Below, piece after piece: positions 5,415 to 18,193 of a stretch of DNA of 64,000 nt. How positions within the stretch are numbered: the first letter of the stretch is position 1; each line of letters opens with the position of its first letter. A model generated the notes under the pieces. The model was not told the DNA's origin. It saw only the letters and a program-made list of their open reading frames with translations, and did no database searches. Location of the stretch: positions 186,001 through 250,000 of the forward strand of contig JAIMBD010000002.1 in NCBI GenBank assembly GCA_023511625.1, in the 5' to 3' direction. This stretch comes from Bacillota bacterium. Lineage in GTDB: Bacteria > Bacillota > Sulfobacillia > Sulfobacillales > Sulfobacillaceae. The position numbers and the translations under genes were made by a program.

Positions 5415-6501
5415 GGGCTCCCTCCTTCCCCGGTCCAAAGGCGTCCACCATGGCCAAGAATTCGTCGAACAGGTAGAGCGAGTCGCTGGGCCCGGGACCG
5501 GCTTCGGGGTGATGCTGGACCGTCAAGATGGGGCGCTCGCGGTGCACCAAGCCTTCGACCGTCTGGTCGTGCAGATTGGTCAGGCGGATGGTGTAGCGAT
5601 CCAGAATGGCCTCGGGGTCCACGGCGTATCCGTGGTTTTGGGAGGTGATCAGCACCCGCCCGGTGCGGTGGTCGTACAAGGGGTGATTGGCCCCGTGATG
5701 GCCAAACTTGAGCGCGTAGGTCTCTGCCCCTTCGGCCAACGCCACCAACTGATGCCCAAGACAAATCCCGAAGGTCGGGTAGTGATCCAGCACGTGGCGC
5801 ACGGTAGGCAGCACGGCACCGAGGTCCTTGGGATTGCCAGGCCCATTGGAGAGCACCACCCCGTCGGGAGACAGCTCGTCGATATCCTCGGGCCCGCTGG
5901 TCGCCGGCAGCACCGTGACGGTGGCGCCGCGCTCCACCAGATGGCGGAGGATGGCGTTTTTCACCCCGTAGTCCAACACCACCAGCCGGCGCGAGCCGGT
6001 GCCGACCGCATACCGCGCGGGCGTCGTGACCCGCCAGACACTATCGCGAAGCATCGGCCCGATCCCTTCCCACAAGGCCGCGGCCTCGCCCTCGTCGGTA
6101 CCTTCTGGCAAAAGGACGGCGTGACTGGTGCCACGTTCGCGGAGGTAGCGGGTCAAAGCCCGGGTGTCTACGCCGACCAGTCCCGGTTTGCGGTAGCGGC
6201 GAAGATAGGGGTCCAACGCCTCCGGATCCGGCCGGCGCGAGGGATGCGCACAGACCTCGCGACAGATGACGGCGGATGCCCAAGGGAAAAGAGACTCGGC
6301 CGCCTCAGGATAGGTGCCGTAGTTGCCGATCAAGGGGTAGGTCAACACCACCAGCTGTCCGTAATAAGACGGGTCGGTCAGGATCTCTTGGTATCCGGTC
6401 ATGCTGGTGTTGAACACCACCTCTCCGGCAGCGGGCACCGGCTCCCCCACCCACTCTCCTTCAAAGCGGGTACCGTCGGAAAAGATCAGGCGTCCCAGCA
6501 T
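5407..6501 (-). CDS. carA: Carbamoyl-phosphate synthase small (glutaminase) subunit
   Basis: The 364-residue glutamine amidotransferase supplies ammonia to CarB. It has the CarA N-terminal domain (TGYQEILTDPSYYGQ at 35-49) and a class I amidotransferase domain with nucleophile C247 in FGICLGHQ and the HHPE histidine/glutamate pair near the C-terminus. The start MLGRLIFSDG was preferred over upstream in-frame codons because it matches family N-termini; those upstream codons lie inside the end of pyrC. It overlaps pyrC by 16 nt and carB by 8 nt. Confidence 0.95.
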   Translation of the reverse strand: MLGRLIFSDGTRFEGEWVGEPVPAAGEVVFNTSMTGYQEILTDPSYYGQLVVLTYPLIGNYGTYPEAAESLFPWASAVICREVCAHPSRRPDPEALDPYLRRYRKPGLVGVDTRALTRYLRERGTSHAVLLPEGTDEGEAAALWEGIGPMLRDSVWRVTTPARYAVGTGSRRLVVLDYGVKNAILRHLVERGATVTVLPATSGPEDIDELSPDGVVLSNGPGNPKDLGAVLPTVRHVLDHYPTFGICLGHQLVALAEGAETYALKFGHHGANHPLYDHRTGRVLITSQNHGYAVDPEAILDRYTIRLTNLHDQTVEGLVHRERPILTVQHHPEAGPGPSDSLYLFDEFLAMVDAFGPGKEGAHA

Positions 6502-7814
6502 GCTGCGCTCACGGCTCCTTCCCGCATCACCCAGATGCCTCTCACCATGGTGGCCACGGCGCGCCCTTTCAACCGCATCCCGGCCAGGGGCGTGTTCTTG
6601 CCTTTGGAATAAAAGCGCTCGGGTTCGACGGTCCACTCGTGATACGGGTCGATCAGGGTAAGGTCAGCCGCCGCCCCCGGAACAATCCCCGGATACGATA
6701 GTCCCAGCACGGCATGGGGGGCAGCGCTCATGCGCCGGAAGGCGTCGATCGGCTTCAGCCGCCCCGTGTGCACGAGGACCGTGAGGACTACGCCGAGACT
6801 GGTCTCCAATCCCGCAATCCCAAAGGGGGCTTCGGCATACGGCAACGCCTTTTCGTCGGCATGGTGCGGGGCGTGATCGGAGGCGATCACCTCCACCACG
6901 CCTTGGCACACGGCCTCGATCAAGGCATCGCGCACGGCTTGGGGGCGCAGGGGCGGGTTCACCTTGGTCACGGCGTGGTACCCCCACTCGGCCACGGCTT
7001 CGTCCGTGAGCAACAGGTGATGGGGCGTGACCTCGGCCGTCACCCGAAGCCCCCTGGCCTTGGCCCAGGCCACGGCCTCTAGGCTTCCCGGGGCGGAAAG
7101 GTGCGCGATGTGCAGGCGTCCGCCGGTCAGGGCCGCCAGCTGGACGTCGCGCCACACCATCACCGACTCGGCCTCGGCCGGCCCGGCAGGAATGCCGAGC
7201 CGCAGCGACACGGCTCCCTCGTGCATGGCGGCGCCTTCAAACAGGCGCGGGTCCTCGGCGTGTTGGATGATAGGCACGCGCAGACTTTGCGAGTAGGTCA
7301 GAGCAGACCGCATCAGTCGGCTGTCCCACACCGGACGACCGTCATCGGAAAAGGCCACCGCTCCGGCCTCCTGCATCCGCCACAAGTCTGCCAGCGTCTC
7401 TCCGGCCAATCCTCGGGTCACCGCTCCGATGGGCCAGATCTGGGTGTAGCCCAAGCGCTCGCCCGTGGACCGCTGCCACGTTACCAACGCCGGATCGTCC
7501 ACCGGCGGCACGGTGTTGGGCATGGTCGCCACGGCCGTCATTCCGCCGGCTGCGGCCGCCTTGGAGCCGCTTTCCAGGTCTTCCTTCCACTCTTGCCCAG
7601 GGCTGCGGAAATGGACGTGGATGTCCACCAACCGCGGAACCAGCCACAGGCCGTCTGCCTCCACGCGCCGAACTGGCACGGCGCCACTGGGGGCTTCGAC
7701 CACGCGGCCACCCTCCACTACCACCGGCCCGGACCACTCCCGCCCGGTGAACGGGTCCAGCACCAGGGCTCCTTCGATTTGGTAGGCTTCCGGGGGGCAG
7801 TTTTCGGCCGTCAC
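6486..7814 (-). CDS. pyrC: Dihydroorotase (class I, PyrC type)
   Basis: The 442-residue zinc amidohydrolase closes carbamoyl-aspartate to dihydroorotate. The metal-binding motif DIHVHFRSPGQ lies near residue 60 and is followed by the family motif GGMTAVATMPNT. Later segments ASDHAPHH and GIAGLETSL are typical of the Bacillus-type enzyme. The GTG start overlaps the pyrB stop (GTGA), which indicates coupling. The open frame continues upstream across pyrB but is not coding there. Length is close to the usual 425-430 residues. Confidence 0.94.
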   Translation of the reverse strand: MTAENCPPEAYQIEGALVLDPFTGREWSGPVVVEGGRVVEAPSGAVPVRRVEADGLWLVPRLVDIHVHFRSPGQEWKEDLESGSKAAAAGGMTAVATMPNTVPPVDDPALVTWQRSTGERLGYTQIWPIGAVTRGLAGETLADLWRMQEAGAVAFSDDGRPVWDSRLMRSALTYSQSLRVPIIQHAEDPRLFEGAAMHEGAVSLRLGIPAGPAEAESVMVWRDVQLAALTGGRLHIAHLSAPGSLEAVAWAKARGLRVTAEVTPHHLLLTDEAVAEWGYHAVTKVNPPLRPQAVRDALIEAVCQGVVEVIASDHAPHHADEKALPYAEAPFGIAGLETSLGVVLTVLVHTGRLKPIDAFRRMSAAPHAVLGLSYPGIVPGAAADLTLIDPYHEWTVEPERFYSKGKNTPLAGMRLKGRAVATMVRGIWVMREGAVSAACWDA

Positions 7815-8725
7815 TCCGCCGCACCTCCCAACAATCGGTACAACACCGCCATCCGCACCGCCACGCCGTTGCGCACTTGGTCTAACACCGCCGACTGAGC
7901 CCCTTCCAGTACCTCGCTGTCGATCTCCACACCCCGGTTCTGCGGGCCAGGATGGAGCACCAGCACATTGGGGTCGGCCCAGCCCAAGTGTTCCCGCGTG
8001 ATTCCCCAACGCTCCCGATACTCCTGCCACGAGGGGAGCAACCCTTGGGCCTGGCGCTCGCGTTGGATGCGCAAAACCTGCACGACGTGCGCCCCGCGAA
8101 TGCCTTGGGCGAGGTCCCAGGTAACCTCGGCGCCCCACTCGCGCCATTCCTCTGAGACCAGGCCAGGCGGCCCCACCAAGGTCACCCGCGCCCCCAGAGC
8201 CAAAAATCCATACAGGTCCGACCGTGCCACGCGGCTGTGCAGGACGTCGCCGACGATGGCTACGCGAAGGCCCTGAAGGCGGCCGAACCGTTGCCGCACC
8301 GTCAACAGGTCCAACAACGCCTGCGTCGGATGCTCGTGCTCGCCATCCCCGGCGTTGATAACGGGAATGGCTAGGCGCTCGGCCATCAACTGCGGCACCC
8401 CGGCCTCGCGGTGCCGCACCACCACTGCATCAACCCCTAAAGCCTCCAAGGTTTTGACGGTATCCCACACCGACTCCCCCTTCTCCAGACTGGACCCTGT
8501 ACTGGAGAAATTCACCACGTCGGCACTGAGGTATTTGGCCGCGAGCTCGAAGGCGTTGCGGGTGCGGGTACTGGGTTCGAAGAAGGCGTTGGCGATGGCG
8601 CGGCCGCGCAGGGTAGGCACCTTTTTAATGGGCCGGCTCAAGATCTCGGACAGGGCCTGCGCCGTGTCCAGCAAGTCCTCCAAGGTCTTGGTGCTAAGCT
8701 CCGCAATCCCCAGAAAGTCGTCCAT
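7811..8725 (-). CDS. pyrB: Aspartate carbamoyltransferase catalytic chain
   Basis: The 304-residue enzyme joins carbamoyl phosphate and aspartate. The carbamoyl-phosphate loop FFEPSTRTRNAFE is near residue 48, the active-site segment HPTQALLDLLT near 130, and LHPGPQNRGVEI near 260. No regulatory chain gene (pyrI) is present, as is usual in Firmicutes. The gene begins 4 nt after pyrR, with a purine-rich GGGGAGGGG tract overlapping the pyrR end. It ends in a GTGA overlap with pyrC. Confidence 0.96.
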   Translation of the reverse strand: MDDFLGIAELSTKTLEDLLDTAQALSEILSRPIKKVPTLRGRAIANAFFEPSTRTRNAFELAAKYLSADVVNFSSTGSSLEKGESVWDTVKTLEALGVDAVVVRHREAGVPQLMAERLAIPVINAGDGEHEHPTQALLDLLTVRQRFGRLQGLRVAIVGDVLHSRVARSDLYGFLALGARVTLVGPPGLVSEEWREWGAEVTWDLAQGIRGAHVVQVLRIQRERQAQGLLPSWQEYRERWGITREHLGWADPNVLVLHPGPQNRGVEIDSEVLEGAQSAVLDQVRNGVAVRMAVLYRLLGGAAE

Positions 8726-11987: not shown

Positions 11988-13052
11988 GTGCCGCCCATGA
12001 ACATGGTGGCGTATCCGTCCACGCTGGCGCTGGCGTTCTTCTACCGGCTGGTGGGAGGCATCGGCCTCGGCGTCGCCGGGTTGACCTTGGCGTGGTGGGC
12101 GTTTCGGCGGTGGAACCGCTCTACACCGCACGAGCCCGTCACCGGCGATGTGGCCGACCGCGTCACCTGGGGATTGGGCGCACTGTGGCTGCTCGATGGC
12201 CTGTTGCAAATGCAGCCCCTGATGGTCACCCACTTTATCGGCGGCTTTCTCACTCCGTTGGTAAGTGGGCAGCCGCCCTGGCTCCAAGCCGCCATCCGGG
12301 TCGGCATCGCGCTGTGGGCGATCAACCCGGTGGTGTGGAACGCGCTCGCGGCCTGGTTGCAGGTGGGAATCGGACTCGTCCTGCTCTTCGCCCGGGATCC
12401 GGGGTGGCGCCGTGCGGCGCTTTGGATCAGCGTCGGGTGGAGCGCCGTGGTGTGGGTCGCCGGAGAGGCGATGGGCGGAGTCTTTTCCGGCGGATCCTGG
12501 TTTTCTGGCAGCCCAGGGTCGGTCCTGTTCTACGGCCTGCTCGCCGTCTGGGTGTTGGCCTCCCCCGATTGGCGCCGGCGCCGCGGCCAGTCGGCCGTGC
12601 GCTATGGTCTCGGGGGGCTGTGGACCCTCGCCGCCCTCGAGCAAGCCTGGCCAGCCAACGGGTTTTGGGGCCCGGCCCTGTCCCAATACGTCGCCTCCAT
12701 GGCCGCTATGCCGCAGCCCGGCTGGCTCTCGGCGCCGCTCTACGCCTGGGCCCACGTCTTGTCCAGCGCCCCGGCGGCTTGGAACGCGGGGTTGGTCGCC
12801 ATCTTTGCCGCCCTCGGAGGGCTCTGGTTTTTTGCGCCCGACCGCCTCGCCACCTTCTGGGCCACGATGGGCGTCGTCCTTTTGACGTGGTACTTCGGCC
12901 AGGACTGGGGGGTGCTCGGGGGTATGGGCACGGACCCGAATAGCGGCGCCCCGGTGTTGTTAGCCCTCTTCATCTACCCCCTCCTGTCTGCTCGGAAAGT
13001 GCTCGCCTCCTCCCCGTCTCCGTTCGGCGCCGCGCCGCGGGTGCAGCCATGA
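11988..13052 (+). CDS. Polytopic membrane protein with an internal duplication; oxidase-cassette component
   Basis: This 354-residue integral membrane protein has about eight to ten hydrophobic segments. I do not recognise a named family with certainty. The two halves look like repeats: WGLGALWLLDGLLQMQP near 65 parallels YGLGGLWTLAALEQAWP near 205, and the glycine-rich GEAMGGVFSGG near 163 parallels GQDWGVLGGMGTDPNSG near 306. The GTG start is 9 nt after AAAGGAGG. It overlaps the SCO-like gene by 4 nt (ATGA), and CtaG follows, so a role in terminal-oxidase or copper handling is inferred from context. Confidence 0.85.
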   Translation: MPPMNMVAYPSTLALAFFYRLVGGIGLGVAGLTLAWWAFRRWNRSTPHEPVTGDVADRVTWGLGALWLLDGLLQMQPLMVTHFIGGFLTPLVSGQPPWLQAAIRVGIALWAINPVVWNALAAWLQVGIGLVLLFARDPGWRRAALWISVGWSAVVWVAGEAMGGVFSGGSWFSGSPGSVLFYGLLAVWVLASPDWRRRRGQSAVRYGLGGLWTLAALEQAWPANGFWGPALSQYVASMAAMPQPGWLSAPLYAWAHVLSSAPAAWNAGLVAIFAALGGLWFFAPDRLATFWATMGVVLLTWYFGQDWGVLGGMGTDPNSGAPVLLALFIYPLLSARKVLASSPSPFGAAPRVQP

Positions 13053-14716
13053 AACCGCGCACGGCCCGGACCGTGGGCTGGGTGGCGGTGGGCGCAGTCC
13101 TGGCCGCGCTGGGCGTGCGTACAGCCCTTGCTCACAGCCCCTCCCGACAGTTGCCACCAGAGGCCGCGGCCGCGTTGGCCGCAGACGGCATGACGCCACT
13201 CGGAGGTTCTCCGGCGCCAGATTTCCACCTCGTCGATCAGCGCGGTCGACCGGTTGCGCTCGACCAATTTCGCGGCAAGACGGTGATCCTCACCTTTCTC
13301 GACCCAGTCTGCTGGTGGGACTGCCCCCTGCAGGCAGCCGAGATGGCTGGCGTCGACCGCCTCCTCGGCCCGGCCAAAGACCGAGTCGTGTTATTGGCCG
13401 TCGCAGGCAACCCCACCGTCCACAGTTTGGGTGCCATCGCCGCCTTCGACCGCTCTCACCATTTGACGGGGCTGCCGAACTGGATCTTTGCCACCGGATC
13501 CACCACGGCCCTTCAGGCAGTGTGGAAGGCATACGGGTACCAGGTCCGCCCGGCCTTGAACGGGATGGATCCCCACAGCGACCTCTTTTACCTCATCGGC
13601 CCCGACGGCCATCTCGACTACCTCTCCAATCCTGAAGCCAACGCCGGTCTGGTGACGGGAACCAGCGCCCTCCTGGCCGCGTATGCGGCCCGGGTAGGAC
13701 ATTGGGCGCCGCCCCCTCAGGCGGACCTGCCCGCACTGTCGCTCGGCCCGGTTGCGACGGCACCGCCCTTGGGCGGGGTAGGACCCGTGGCCTGGTTGGG
13801 GCCGGGCCCCCAGACGGCCTGGGCCATTGGCAACGTTTCCGCAAACGGCGTCACCTATCAGGTAGCGTTCTACACCCGCGACGGCGGCCGCCATTGGCGC
13901 GATGTAGGACCGCCGGGGCTGTCCAAACGGGGCGGCACGGTCCTCGTGGCCGCAAGTGGAACGGCAGCCTGGGCTGTGGTGCGCCCCTTCGGCTACCAAC
14001 TGGACCCCGCCGTCTTCGCCACGGCCGATGGAGGCCGAAATTGGGCCGGGCCCACCCTCTTGCCGGGTCCGCTCGCCCCGGGAAACCCGCTGGCTGCTGC
14101 CGGCGCTACGGTGGCCTGGGTGGCGAGCGGACAACACCTGTGGCAAACCGAAGATGGAGGGCAGCGTTGGACGGCTCGAGGTCTCTTGCCCGGACCCGCT
14201 GGCCAACCGGTCGACTTGGCCTTCAGCGGGGGGCAGTTGTGGCTGGCAATCGGCAGTCGATTGTGGCGGTGGACACCAGGGCACTGGGCCAACGTCGCGC
14301 TGCCGTCCGCCCCGGGTTCCGGGCCGGTGACCGTTGGCACCCCCTGGCCGGTAAGGGGCGGCTGGGCTACGCCCGTGATCCGTGGCGGTGCGCGCCCCCG
14401 GTTGCAAATCGCAATGGAAAAGGCGGGAACCTGGCAGTGGTCGCGCGCCCTGGATCTGCCCGCCCCCGACCTCGCACTGGTGTCGTTTGCCGATGGGTCG
14501 GTGTTTGCGGTGGGCGCAGCCGGACTCCACCTGGAGGTGTGGCGCTGGAATGGCAGTCCGAGTGGCTGGGTTCCCGTCTCAGGCCCTTGGCCGGGCCGAG
14601 GCCAGCCGACGGCATTGACGGCAAGCGGGAGCAGGTTTTGGCTCACGGTGGCGGATGGCAGCCGCCAGGCGTGGGTATGGAACGGCCGCGCCTGGATTCA
14701 AGCCGCCGTCCCGTAA
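13049..14716 (+). CDS. Exported SCO1/SenC-like redoxin fused to a C-terminal BNR/Ycf48-like beta-propeller
   Basis: The 555-residue protein begins with a signal sequence or anchor (residues 8-28, ALA-HS). Residues about 50-215 form a thioredoxin-fold SCO domain with the copper-binding C88-W-W-D-C92 (CxxxC) and the conserved distal histidine H176 (MDPHSD). From about 230 to the end, repeated blades carry sialidase-like turns (TRDGGRHWRD, TADGGRNWAG, TEDGGQRWTA), as in Ycf48/HCF136-type propellers. SCO proteins deliver copper to the CuA site of cytochrome oxidase; the propeller may act as an assembly scaffold, which is inference. The fusion is unusual. Confidence 0.88.
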   Translation: MKPRTARTVGWVAVGAVLAALGVRTALAHSPSRQLPPEAAAALAADGMTPLGGSPAPDFHLVDQRGRPVALDQFRGKTVILTFLDPVCWWDCPLQAAEMAGVDRLLGPAKDRVVLLAVAGNPTVHSLGAIAAFDRSHHLTGLPNWIFATGSTTALQAVWKAYGYQVRPALNGMDPHSDLFYLIGPDGHLDYLSNPEANAGLVTGTSALLAAYAARVGHWAPPPQADLPALSLGPVATAPPLGGVGPVAWLGPGPQTAWAIGNVSANGVTYQVAFYTRDGGRHWRDVGPPGLSKRGGTVLVAASGTAAWAVVRPFGYQLDPAVFATADGGRNWAGPTLLPGPLAPGNPLAAAGATVAWVASGQHLWQTEDGGQRWTARGLLPGPAGQPVDLAFSGGQLWLAIGSRLWRWTPGHWANVALPSAPGSGPVTVGTPWPVRGGWATPVIRGGARPRLQIAMEKAGTWQWSRALDLPAPDLALVSFADGSVFAVGAAGLHLEVWRWNGSPSGWVPVSGPWPGRGQPTALTASGSRFWLTVADGSRQAWVWNGRAWIQAAVP

Positions 14717-14774: not shown

Positions 14775-15623
14775 ATGATCCCGTTGAACGCCATCCCCTT
14801 CTGGGCCTGGGCCACCCCTGGGATCCTGGTGGCGGTCGCGGCGGTAGCCGCATTGTATCTTTGGATCCTGGCGGGACCTGGCCACGCCCTGGTGCCACAC
14901 CTTTCCCCGCCGACCCGGCTCCAGGCGGCCGCCTTCCTGGCCGGTTGCTTGTTCCTTTACCTCGCCTTGGGCAGTCCGCTCGGAGTTCTGGCCATGGGCT
15001 ATTCCTTCACGGCCCACATGATCCAGCACGTCCTGGCGGCCTTGGTCGCAGCGCCGTTGCTGTTGGTGGGACTCCCGGCCGACGTGTGGCGGAGCGTCCT
15101 CCGTACCCCCGGGCTTGGCTTTCTCTTCCGCCGCGCCGTGCGCCCGATTCCGGCGCTGGTGGTGTTCAACCTATTCTTCGGGATCTTGGTCTGGCCGCCT
15201 CTCTTAGACGCCATGGTTCGGTCCATGGCCCTGATGTTGACCATGCACCTCATCCTGGTCGTGGTGGCCATCCCCATGTGGTGGCCGCTTTTAAGCCCGC
15301 TGCCGGAACTGCCCCGCTTGCACCCTGGTGTACAGCTGCTCTACATCTTCGCCGACGGTCTGCCGATGCTGTTGCCGTTGGCCCTTGTGGCCCTCGACAC
15401 CCATCCCCTGTACGCCGCGGCCTACCAAGCCGGAGTCCGCGCGATAGGCATGGGCCTGGTGCCTGACCAACAGCTCGGCGGCTCTATCTGCATCGTCTTG
15501 GTCCACGCGCTATACGGTGCCCTCTTCATCGTCCGTTTCCGCCAATGGGCCCGCCTGGAAAGCGGTCGCATCGACGGCGTGCCCCACCTGTCGGTAGTCG
15601 AGCCGCCCGCCAAGCGGCGGTGA
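14775..15623 (+). CDS. ctaG: Cytochrome c oxidase assembly protein CtaG (Caa3-type)
   Basis: The 282-residue protein with about seven membrane segments belongs to the Caa3_CtaG family of Firmicutes, needed for assembly of caa3 oxidase and thought to handle copper. Family hallmarks seen are HMIQHVLAALVAAPLLLVGLP near 75-95, the MHLILVVVAIPMWWPLLSP segment near 155, and PDQQLGGSICI near 235. It lies 58 nt downstream of the SCO-propeller gene and probably belongs to the same operon. It ends 4 nt from the end of the convergent gene with no visible terminator between them. Confidence 0.92.
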   Translation: MIPLNAIPFWAWATPGILVAVAAVAALYLWILAGPGHALVPHLSPPTRLQAAAFLAGCLFLYLALGSPLGVLAMGYSFTAHMIQHVLAALVAAPLLLVGLPADVWRSVLRTPGLGFLFRRAVRPIPALVVFNLFFGILVWPPLLDAMVRSMALMLTMHLILVVVAIPMWWPLLSPLPELPRLHPGVQLLYIFADGLPMLLPLALVALDTHPLYAAAYQAGVRAIGMGLVPDQQLGGSICIVLVHALYGALFIVRFRQWARLESGRIDGVPHLSVVEPPAKRR

Positions 15624-15627
15624 CGCC

Positions 15628-18051
15628 TCACCACATTCCCACAGTCCCCTGTGCCGCATCGAGATCCACGGTATCGGTGATGCCGGTGGGACCAGGCACG
15701 TCTCCGGCGTACTGCCACAGGGTGGCCTCGGGCAGGATTTGGGTAGGGTCTGGGGGAGGCACCTGGACTCCCGCGTAGTTCCATGCAGTGACCCAATACA
15801 ACACGTGGTTTTCGCCCCACGGTTGGCTGGCGATGGTTTGAAGCTGGTGCGGCCCGCTGTACACCCCAGGCAGGTAGCCCTGAGCGGCCACCGCCTCCGT
15901 CCATCCCTCGACGTAACCGAGCCATTGGGTCCCGGTTTGGTACGGCTCAAGGTCAAGATAGATGGCCGTGCCCGGAGGTTGGCCCACCCCTTCAGCCAAT
16001 GCCACGGCCCGCTCCCCATCGACGGTGCCCTGGGCTTGCGTCTGCACCCCACACACCGCTTCCCCGGGCACGCGGTTGGCCCCGCTGTAAAGACTGACCA
16101 ACAGCAGACCGTCGGCCTTGAGGGCCGCGGCTTCGCGCGCCGTCAAAGGCGTACTCCGGTAACAAGGTCCGCCGAGGTAACGGGCGGCGAACCGATAGGG
16201 GGTCCCCGGTCCGATCTGTCCTGCAGCGGCTGCGGGAACCAGCGATTGATCGGCGTCGAGCCCGTTGAGCACCTCCGAAGCGCCCGAAACGCCAGAGGGC
16301 GCCTGGGCGGCATCTGCCGTACCTTGGCACGCCGGCGCCGGCGTCGCTGCCGCGGGCAGGCTCCCCGTCGGCAGGATCCCAGTCAAGGCGTACTGGACCC
16401 AAGCCGCGGCCAGGGCTGCGCTGTCTTGGGCCGTGTTGCCGTTGGCATCCACGAAATACCCCGCCGTGGGCTCAGTCACTCCAAGTGCGCCGGGATAAGG
16501 CGACCCTTGGGCTGGCGTCCCCGTAGACCCGGCGCTCCATCCACACGGGTCATAGGCCAGGGCGTTGGCAGCGGGAGAGCCAATGGCTACCACCACCGCG
16601 GAGCCTTGTTGCATGGCCTGCCAGGCCTGGGCGAACGTAGTCAAAATTTGGTCGGCGGGAATCCCTTCGGCTTGGGCCAGCGCCTTCGCGGTCGCCAGAT
16701 CGGCAGGGCTTGCCGCGTAGAGCGCGATCTGATCCGGCGTCGCCGGATGCGGCGCGTGGACGATGACCGTCGCGGTGGCCGTCAGCCCGGCCACTTGAGC
16801 CGTCACGGTGTAGGTCCCGGATTGGTCCGCCACCACCGCCACCCCCCCGTCCCCCTGGGGCGCCCACGCGACCCACGGGGAGGAGGAAGAGACCGTCCAC
16901 GTCACTGAGGGGGACAACGGCTGGCCCCAGGCGTTGGCAACCTCGGCGCGGGCCGTCCACAACTTCCCCGCTACGGCCGTCGACGCACCCTGCAGGGTAA
17001 GACGGGCCGGCGTCTTAGTCCAAATCTCCGCCACGTCTGCCTGCACCGAGGGCGGCACGGCTTGGCTTTGGCCCACCACTGCCCACCGCATGGGCGAAAA
17101 CGCTTGGGGCTTGCCAAGATACGCCGCAATGGCCCCAGGCAACGGCCCGGTCGAAGGCACCAACACCAGTCCTGCTTGCCAGGCCGCAGCCAGAGGGCCC
17201 GCTACCAAGGCATCGGTGAAGTGGTCGGGGCTGGCGCTGGCCAGCACCACCGCAGACCAAGGTCCGGCGGCAAAATAGGCGTCCAAGGCTACGTTGGTGG
17301 CGTAGCGGTCGGCCCCTGCCAACGGTACCACCCGGCCGGTGGCGGGCAACGGGGTCGCGGCCGCCGCACCGACAAGATACACCGTGGCGCCGGGAGAAAG
17401 CCAGGTCGCCTCGTCCGGGGGCAAGGGCCCGCCCCCCACAGGACGCAACAAAATCGGAGCCTCCGCTTCGGCAGCAAACGGCCCGGCTGCCAGCGCGTCC
17501 ACCAAGTGGTCTTGGGCTCCCGAAGCCACGAACGCCGCCGGGAAGGCGTGGCGCTGGGTCACCGCAGCCAAATAGCCGGCCACTGCCGCCGCTGTGGCAA
17601 ACCGGTCCGGTCCCGAAAGGCGGGCCCGCACTGCCACACCAGGGGGCAGCGCGCCCGAGTTGCCCAAAGACGCGGCGGCACCTACCAGGATGACGTTCTC
17701 CACACCAAGGGATTGCAGGGCCAGAGTGGTGGTGGACCCCAAGACAGTGGGCGATTCCGCCAGCAACAAGGGCGCATGCAACGCCGCCGCCAATGGTCCC
17801 GCCGTCAGGGCGTCGACGGCATGGGCGTCGGTCCCCACTGCCAGCACGGCCGTGCTGGCACCGTGGGGAAACTCCTCGAAAGCCACCTGAGCCGCCGTAG
17901 CAAACCGGTCTGGTCCGGCCAGCACCACCGGGGACGGCGGCCCCGCCGCATGGGCCGCCTCCGGCCCCGCGGCGACGCCAAACAGCACCGCCCCTGCCGC
18001 GAGGACCGCCCCCCATGGGGTCCGGCGCTGCCTGGTCCGACCTTTCCGCAT
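15628..18051 (-). CDS. Exported cell-wall-binding-repeat-2 protein with Ig-like and DUF1906 glycosidase-like domains
   Basis: This 807-residue secreted protein has a twin-arginine-free signal peptide (about 1-35, ending AHA). Three CWB2 repeats follow (about 40-125, 130-220 and 225-320), each with the hallmark GxDRxATA/N and DALVAGPLAA-type segments. Next come an Ig-like domain near 350-430, a linker, and a C-terminal DUF1906 (Rv2525c-like, glycosidase-fold) domain marked by RFAARYLGG, AIYLDLEPY, GVYSGP and WQYAGD. It is likely anchored to wall polymers and acting on peptidoglycan or glycan. The start has GGGAGGGAG upstream. Confidence 0.88.
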   Translation of the reverse strand: MRKGRTRQRRTPWGAVLAAGAVLFGVAAGPEAAHAAGPPSPVVLAGPDRFATAAQVAFEEFPHGASTAVLAVGTDAHAVDALTAGPLAAALHAPLLLAESPTVLGSTTTLALQSLGVENVILVGAAASLGNSGALPPGVAVRARLSGPDRFATAAAVAGYLAAVTQRHAFPAAFVASGAQDHLVDALAAGPFAAEAEAPILLRPVGGGPLPPDEATWLSPGATVYLVGAAAATPLPATGRVVPLAGADRYATNVALDAYFAAGPWSAVVLASASPDHFTDALVAGPLAAAWQAGLVLVPSTGPLPGAIAAYLGKPQAFSPMRWAVVGQSQAVPPSVQADVAEIWTKTPARLTLQGASTAVAGKLWTARAEVANAWGQPLSPSVTWTVSSSSPWVAWAPQGDGGVAVVADQSGTYTVTAQVAGLTATATVIVHAPHPATPDQIALYAASPADLATAKALAQAEGIPADQILTTFAQAWQAMQQGSAVVVAIGSPAANALAYDPCGWSAGSTGTPAQGSPYPGALGVTEPTAGYFVDANGNTAQDSAALAAAWVQYALTGILPTGSLPAAATPAPACQGTADAAQAPSGVSGASEVLNGLDADQSLVPAAAAGQIGPGTPYRFAARYLGGPCYRSTPLTAREAAALKADGLLLVSLYSGANRVPGEAVCGVQTQAQGTVDGERAVALAEGVGQPPGTAIYLDLEPYQTGTQWLGYVEGWTEAVAAQGYLPGVYSGPHQLQTIASQPWGENHVLYWVTAWNYAGVQVPPPDPTQILPEATLWQYAGDVPGPTGITDTVDLDAAQGTVGMW

Positions 18052-18077
18052 CGTTGTCTCCCTCCCGCACTCCGCTT

Positions 18078-18121
18078 GGCGACAACACGCCATCCCCGAC
18101 GGCGAAAACCTGTTCGCCGCC
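18078..18121 (-). other. Two hairpins in the 5' leader of the CWB2 gene
   Basis: On the minus strand a 9-pair hairpin (18121-18098, one G-U pair) is followed by GGCG-6 nt-CGCC (18091-18078). Both lie between the start codon at 18051 and the likely promoter region. No known riboswitch consensus is matched. They could set mRNA stability or regulate translation. Confidence 0.4.
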
Positions 18122-18160
18122 AATTGGGAGCGGAGTATGGCATTGGCAGTCGAGACAACC

Positions 18161-18193
18161 ATTCGACACCGAGGGAGGGAGTTCCTGTCGAAT
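18161..18193. promoter_or_regulatory. Inverted repeat, candidate operator upstream of the CWB2 gene
   Basis: ATTCGACA (18161-18168) and TGTCGAAT (18186-18193) are perfect 8-bp inverted copies whose starts are 25 bp apart. They lie 110-140 nt upstream of the CWB2 start. The spacing of about two and a half helical turns is typical of a dimeric regulator or of a looped pair of half-sites. No convincing -10/-35 pair was found. Confidence 0.4.

Follow-up and report, generated by a model that had tools for sequence, protein, structure and literature searches.

A SCO domain fused to a β-propeller in Sulfobacillus-type bacteria: sequence, predicted structure and a possible role in oxidase assembly

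SCO proteins are membrane-anchored chaperones whose recognition of their targets is unsettled. Within the window analysed here, a 64,000-nucleotide stretch of genomic DNA, one gene (13049..14716, + strand) appears to join a SCO domain to a β-propeller, which raises the questions of whether the two are made as one protein and what part a propeller could play beside a SCO domain. The organism belongs to the Sulfobacillus-type bacteria, acid-mine-drainage microbes of the kind used in bioleaching. In the literature that we searched, which largely comprised papers open without subscription, we found no description of a SCO–propeller fusion or of SenC in Sulfobacillus, and we do not claim priority. 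The fusion, together with the split version described below, names a candidate recognition module and candidate membrane partners, and as a natural fusion it makes the question of SCO target recognition testable.

A single frame and its SCO domain

The gene, whose coordinates the initial annotation had given exactly, is one frame of 555 residues that runs from ATG to TAA with no internal stop in its translation. Residues 1–28 (13049..13132, +) form a predicted N-terminal signal-anchor, with a hydropathy peak of 1.79 at residue 9 and a helix at residues 10–28 of the AlphaFold2 model; no lipobox cysteine is present in residues 1–28. The SCO domain (residues 50–221; 13196..13711, +) is followed by a poorly conserved Pro/Ala-rich linker (residues 222–243; 13712..13777, +) and by the β-propeller (residues 244–555; 13778..14713, +), which was delimited by the model, structure matches and a family profile. 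We infer that the protein is exported and membrane-anchored. The model, built from 11 sequences (mean pLDDT 72.5, pTM 0.67), consists of two domains. The propeller region lies mostly at a pLDDT of 70–90, and residues 223–247 of the linker region fall below 50, which fits a flexible joint. The initial annotation had placed a SCO domain and a propeller in one chain, and the single frame, the Pfam match to SCO1-SenC and the propeller fold of the predicted model all bear this out.

Residues 57–188 match SCO1-SenC with 42.8 bits against a cut-off of 22.8 (6e-11). The SCO domain also matches solved SCO proteins in the PDB by sequence, and residues 54–217 of the model match Bradyrhizobium ScoI with a Z score of 20.2 and an r.m.s.d. 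of 2.0 over 153 aligned residues. The CxxxC motif and the distal histidine of SCO proteins are intact, as had been described. The cysteine pair C88-x3-C92 (CWWDC; 13310..13324, +), which lies within DPVCWWDCP, is invariant in all of the fusion relatives that cover the motif, and the distal histidine, H176, is invariant among the fusion relatives. We take C88, C92 and H176 to be the putative copper site.

Two further residues set this SCO domain apart. Alignment of the relatives places a methionine three residues before the distal histidine (M173-x-x-H176; 13565..13576, +), and this methionine is found in 11 of the 11 proteins comprising the fused forms and the relative in genome G035, versus one of 27 other SCO domains. 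H125 (13421..13423, +), in the motif NPxxHS, is shared by all ten of the fused proteins and G035 but missing from the 27 other SCO domains; when aligned with BsSco it stands where the DPxxD loop has its second aspartate. On this comparison H125 and M173 are signature residues of the propeller-linked SCO clade. The fold, the CxxxC motif, the distal histidine and the N-terminal membrane anchor are thus shared with SCO1/SenC chaperones such as BsSco, Bradyrhizobium ScoI and human SCO1, whereas the C-terminal propeller, the motif DPVCWxxCP and the additional invariant H125 and M173 set the fusion apart from them.

The same bacteria also encode SCO proteins of about 400 residues (for example on contig C29 of G000, the genome of the window) which likewise carry a C-terminal partner domain, but in these the partner is, as judged by eye, thioredoxin-like and the SCO domain belongs to a different clade. 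Such a second thioredoxin-like domain appears to be present at the C-terminus of the related SCO proteins at loci L031 (G000 C29), L010–L030 and L033; the SCO cysteines have been lost in L030 and L033.

The propeller and its kinship with Ycf48

Taken alone, the C-terminal half matches family models weakly (BNR, 0.017; Ycf48, 0.0063), so that the propeller named by the initial annotation needed proof. A motif scan finds three T-x-DGG-x-x-W Asp-boxes, all in the N-terminal part of the propeller: TRDGGRHW (residues 276–283; 13874..13897, +), TADGGRNW (residues 325–332; 14021..14044, +) and TEDGGQRW (residues 367–374; 14147..14170, +). Shuffling the domain 100,000 times never produced three DGGxxW motifs, which rules out chance as the source of the repeats that had been noticed earlier. 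The motif is absent from blades 4–7, so sequence alone reveals just three blades. In the model, which matched the SCO and propeller folds separately, residues 244–555 superpose on the propeller domains of GH74 enzymes with a Z score of 21.2 and an r.m.s.d. of 3.4 over 294 aligned residues, and many WD40-type propellers match the same residues with Z scores of 18–20 in alignments that cover the whole propeller length. These matches suggest a propeller of seven blades.

When His, Cys, Met, Trp, Asp, Glu, Lys and Arg were checked across the family, the near-invariant positions of the propeller were tryptophans and R294; an RGG-containing loop is conserved besides the tryptophans. No Cys, His or Met is conserved among these residue types, so the propeller is unlikely to have a copper site of its own or to bind copper itself. 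It diverges faster than the SCO half, with 26–42% identity to the window protein versus 44–76%. Numerous further Asp-box propeller genes are found in each of these genomes.

A propeller profile built from ten family members and searched against all solved structures matches Ycf48 first (1.7e-10 to 5e-10), followed by HCF136 (8.5e-7) and a xyloglucanase (5e-5). The label 'Ycf48-like' is therefore sound as to kinship, the photosystem II factors Ycf48 and HCF136 being the nearest relatives of solved structure and sharing the general fold, but it cannot be pressed further. The curated Ycf48 model (an NCBIfam equivalog) gives 17.6 bits against a cut-off of 326, and PSII_BNR, which the initial annotation had named together with SCO1/SenC, matches three of the ten family members, whereas SCO1/SenC is found above its cut-off. 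Ycf48 binds D1 through a conserved arginine patch (PMC10403576); the aligned region of the fusion has no conserved arginine counterpart to this patch, in what is a remote alignment where single positions may be off. Since it falls far below the curated cut-off and lacks a conserved counterpart of the patch, the fusion propeller is, as judged by sequence, a relative of Ycf48 and not a Ycf48; it differs further in being joined to a SCO domain. Ycf48 is absent among the structural matches listed for the model, which we do not count as evidence against kinship.

Distribution, gene neighbourhood and origin of the fusion

The fusion is found in ten genomes from three families, on chromosome-sized contigs in four of them. 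Seven full-length examples belong to one family (G000, G005, G009, G017, G023, G026 and G029) and another is in G115, from a different family of the class. In G106, of the third family, the SCO domain is followed by a shortened propeller part of about 200 residues, and in G001, a sister species, the two halves lie at the ends of two contigs, and these ends share overlapping sequence. A fusion created by sequencing error or annotation is ruled out: the frame is uninterrupted both on the four chromosome-sized contigs and in several draft genomes, relatives conserve it over its whole length, and GC content by codon position does not change across the SCO–propeller junction. A separate propeller made from an internal start was also considered; GTG and TTG codons lie near residues 241–250, but their product would lack an export signal.

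Beyond the fusions named, a search of 154 class genomes gave no further match to both halves at 1e-45. At a strict threshold of 1e-55, 398 sampled genomes of the phylum yielded matches in G000 and G005 alone and none outside the fusion family. Among plasmid records, none spans 80% of the fusion query. Other phyla were covered by a single pattern scan across 84,980 genomes, which finds close relatives only. At L079 (G031:C146, about 6300–8436), propeller fragments with stops precede a paralogue of the membrane protein described below and a gene for a protein of about 180 residues; this suggests that the relative has a copy of the fusion locus that has decayed or was misassembled.

The gene order in the window is membrane protein, SCO–propeller, CtaG. 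The membrane protein (354 residues; 11988..13052, +) matches no Pfam family and is all-helical in its AlphaFold2 model. Its stop codon overlaps the start of the fusion in an ATGA read directly from the sequence (13049..13052, +), and this overlap makes translational coupling of the two genes likely; in G115 the corresponding overlap is also of 4 nt (GTGA). The same membrane protein is encoded immediately 5′ of the fusion, with 3–15 nt between the matches, in seven members of the order, among them G001, G009, G017, G023, G026 and G029; it is missing beside the fusion in G005. The partner resembles the membrane part of GGCX and NACHO weakly (Z about 10 and 8, from a low-confidence model), and we assign it to no known family. 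Its own family is large and without a Pfam model, is present throughout the order (42 of 42 genomes) in up to about ten copies, and has a member within 3 kb of 14 of the 53 SCO hits in the order; certain copies lie near CtaG or COX2.

CtaG (282 residues; 14775..15623, +), a cytochrome c oxidase assembly factor of the Caa3_CtaG family, begins 58 bases 3′ of the fusion. It matches PF09678 with 140.2 bits against a cut-off of 27.7 (9.4e-41); against the NCBIfam equivalog it scores 128.6 bits, short of the cut-off of 279. CtaG lies directly downstream of the fusion in the window and in G001, and in several fusion genomes it is located away from it. In G009, G017, G023 and G029 the fusion is followed by a shorter paralogue of the membrane protein and by an apparently membrane-embedded protein of about 180 residues. 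This last protein is conserved and is seen in the operon at L046 (13374–13934) and L042 (11277–11828). On the other side of CtaG in the window, an 844-residue protein encoded at 15628–18162 on the minus strand adjoins the operon and carries three CWB2 cell-wall-binding repeats and an Rv2525c-like glycoside-hydrolase-like domain.

A split relative is found on a single contig of G035, from another family of the same order. Here the membrane protein and the SCO domain form one frame (L042, 8320–10137) and the propeller is a separate gene, whose start overlaps the last 4 bases of that frame and whose product begins with a lipoprotein-type signal; the ∼180-residue protein and CtaG follow. The best match of this propeller in G000, G005, G017 and G023 is the fusion propeller, by a narrow margin in G000 (1.5e-9 versus 3.6e-8 for the next propeller). 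That the same parts occur both fused and split is a classical sign of joint function. In a tree of SCO domains the fused proteins make up one side of a branch (support 100/99), with G035 as their neighbour (87/75) and standalone SCO proteins beyond it (100/99); at least one of these standalone proteins adjoins a copy of the partner membrane protein. On this sequence evidence the fusion is of ancient single origin. The simplest reading of the order of events is that a membrane protein and a SCO protein came together, that a propeller gene then joined the operon and that fusion followed. The 87/75 support is modest, however, and the arrangement in G035 may instead have arisen by a later split.

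Proposed role and alternative interpretations

In our view the fusion probably serves a haem-copper oxidase as a copper chaperone, a thiol reductant or both, and its propeller would be a docking or site-shielding module; we assign this reading a probability of roughly 0.55. The SCO domain, through C88, C92 and H176, would reduce a cysteine pair of the target and hand over copper, while the propeller, flexibly linked, would dock onto the target (most likely an oxidase subunit) and keep its unfinished site held or shielded during loading; the membrane protein of the operon and CtaG would be the membrane partners. The SCO residues, both folds, the anchor, the CtaG neighbour and the gene set of G035 speak for this reading, as do the occurrence of fused and split forms, the kinship with a propeller that shields a metal site and the presence in the genome of a CuA-type subunit II. 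In Bacillus halodurans sco lies adjacent to Caa3_ctaG, an arrangement consistent with a part in caa3 biosynthesis, although Caa3_CtaG has been tied tentatively to CuB rather than to CuA (review, PMC9145763).

This tie counts against the oxidase reading, as do the unlinked oxidase genes, the relatives with CuA oxidases that lack the fusion, and the fusion genomes in which CtaG, or in G005 the membrane protein, is not beside it. The operon holds no oxidase structural genes, none of the SCO genes in the order has a COX2 gene within 3 kb, and the genome's own CuA-type subunit II with fused cytochrome c (CAEFCGTGHADM) is on another contig (G000 C17). Numerous relatives with CuA oxidases have other SCO proteins instead, so the fusion would be an optional or specialised chaperone. 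The initial annotation had seen in the fusion of a CuA-site metallochaperone a dedicated assembly scaffold for a respiratory oxidase; oxidase assembly fits the position of CtaG and the recurrence of the gene set in a second family, but 'CuA-site' and 'dedicated scaffold' both go further than this evidence, given the absence of nearby COX2 genes, the many CuA-oxidase genomes without the fusion and the lack of the Ycf48 arginine patch.

The same unlinked oxidase genes and fusion-free CuA relatives would suit a different client, an extracytoplasmic copper protein such as rusticyanin or another blue copper protein that the propeller recognises. The relative S. thermotolerans has rusticyanin and several copper systems (PMC6803676). 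We nevertheless think this unlikely, though worth keeping in view, as the oxidase-specific factor CtaG shares the operon in two families and we noticed no further copper-protein gene there.

Slightly less likely in our estimation is a thiol-disulfide enzyme whose SCO domain keeps cysteine pairs of exported proteins reduced while the propeller selects substrates. ResA, TlpA and thiol-peroxidase models match the SCO domain weakly, other SCO proteins of these genomes carry the second thioredoxin-like domain, and proteins that join a thioredoxin-like domain to a propeller exist. One of them, human NHLRC2 (PMC6107167), is among the Foldseek matches and has a thioredoxin-fold domain and then a propeller in one chain; it differs in that the domain is thioredoxin-like and not SCO and the propeller is of the NHL and not the Asp-box type, and the abstracts consulted give it no tie to oxidase assembly. 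Against an enzyme of this kind, H176 is invariant, the distal histidine being the SCO-specific copper ligand, and SCO1-SenC is the best Pfam match of the window protein and the sole one above cut-off.

Returning to the oxidase reading, a narrower form of it can be drawn by analogy. Ycf48, the nearest characterised relative of the propeller, acts by occupying a metal site that has yet to be loaded (PMC10403576), and the fusion propeller might likewise cap a nascent oxidase subunit at its still empty metal site, after which the tethered SCO domain would load copper; we consider this specific mechanism doubtful. Were it true, photosystem II and respiratory oxidases would share propeller-based protection of metal sites during assembly, and in the fusion the cap and the metal donor would sit in one chain. 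The fusion links the propeller family that shields the manganese site of photosystem II to what is probably copper-site assembly in acid-dwelling bacteria.

We regard as very improbable a last reading, in which the propeller serves as a generic tether to the surface or cell wall, takes no part in copper transfer and could have been fused incidentally. In its favour, each genome has multiple other propeller genes, divergence is faster in the propeller than in the SCO half and G106 retains just the ∼200 residues beyond its SCO domain; against it, the fusion is kept in three families with its SCO domains on one side of a branch, G035 keeps its separate propeller in the same operon, and the RGG-containing loop and tryptophan positions are conserved. 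A copper-protein domain naturally fused to a β-propeller is also found in the Cu/Zn-SOD of Deinococcus (DrSOD), which differs in being an enzyme with a six-bladed, calcium-binding lactonase propeller and no chaperone role shown (PMC12362111).
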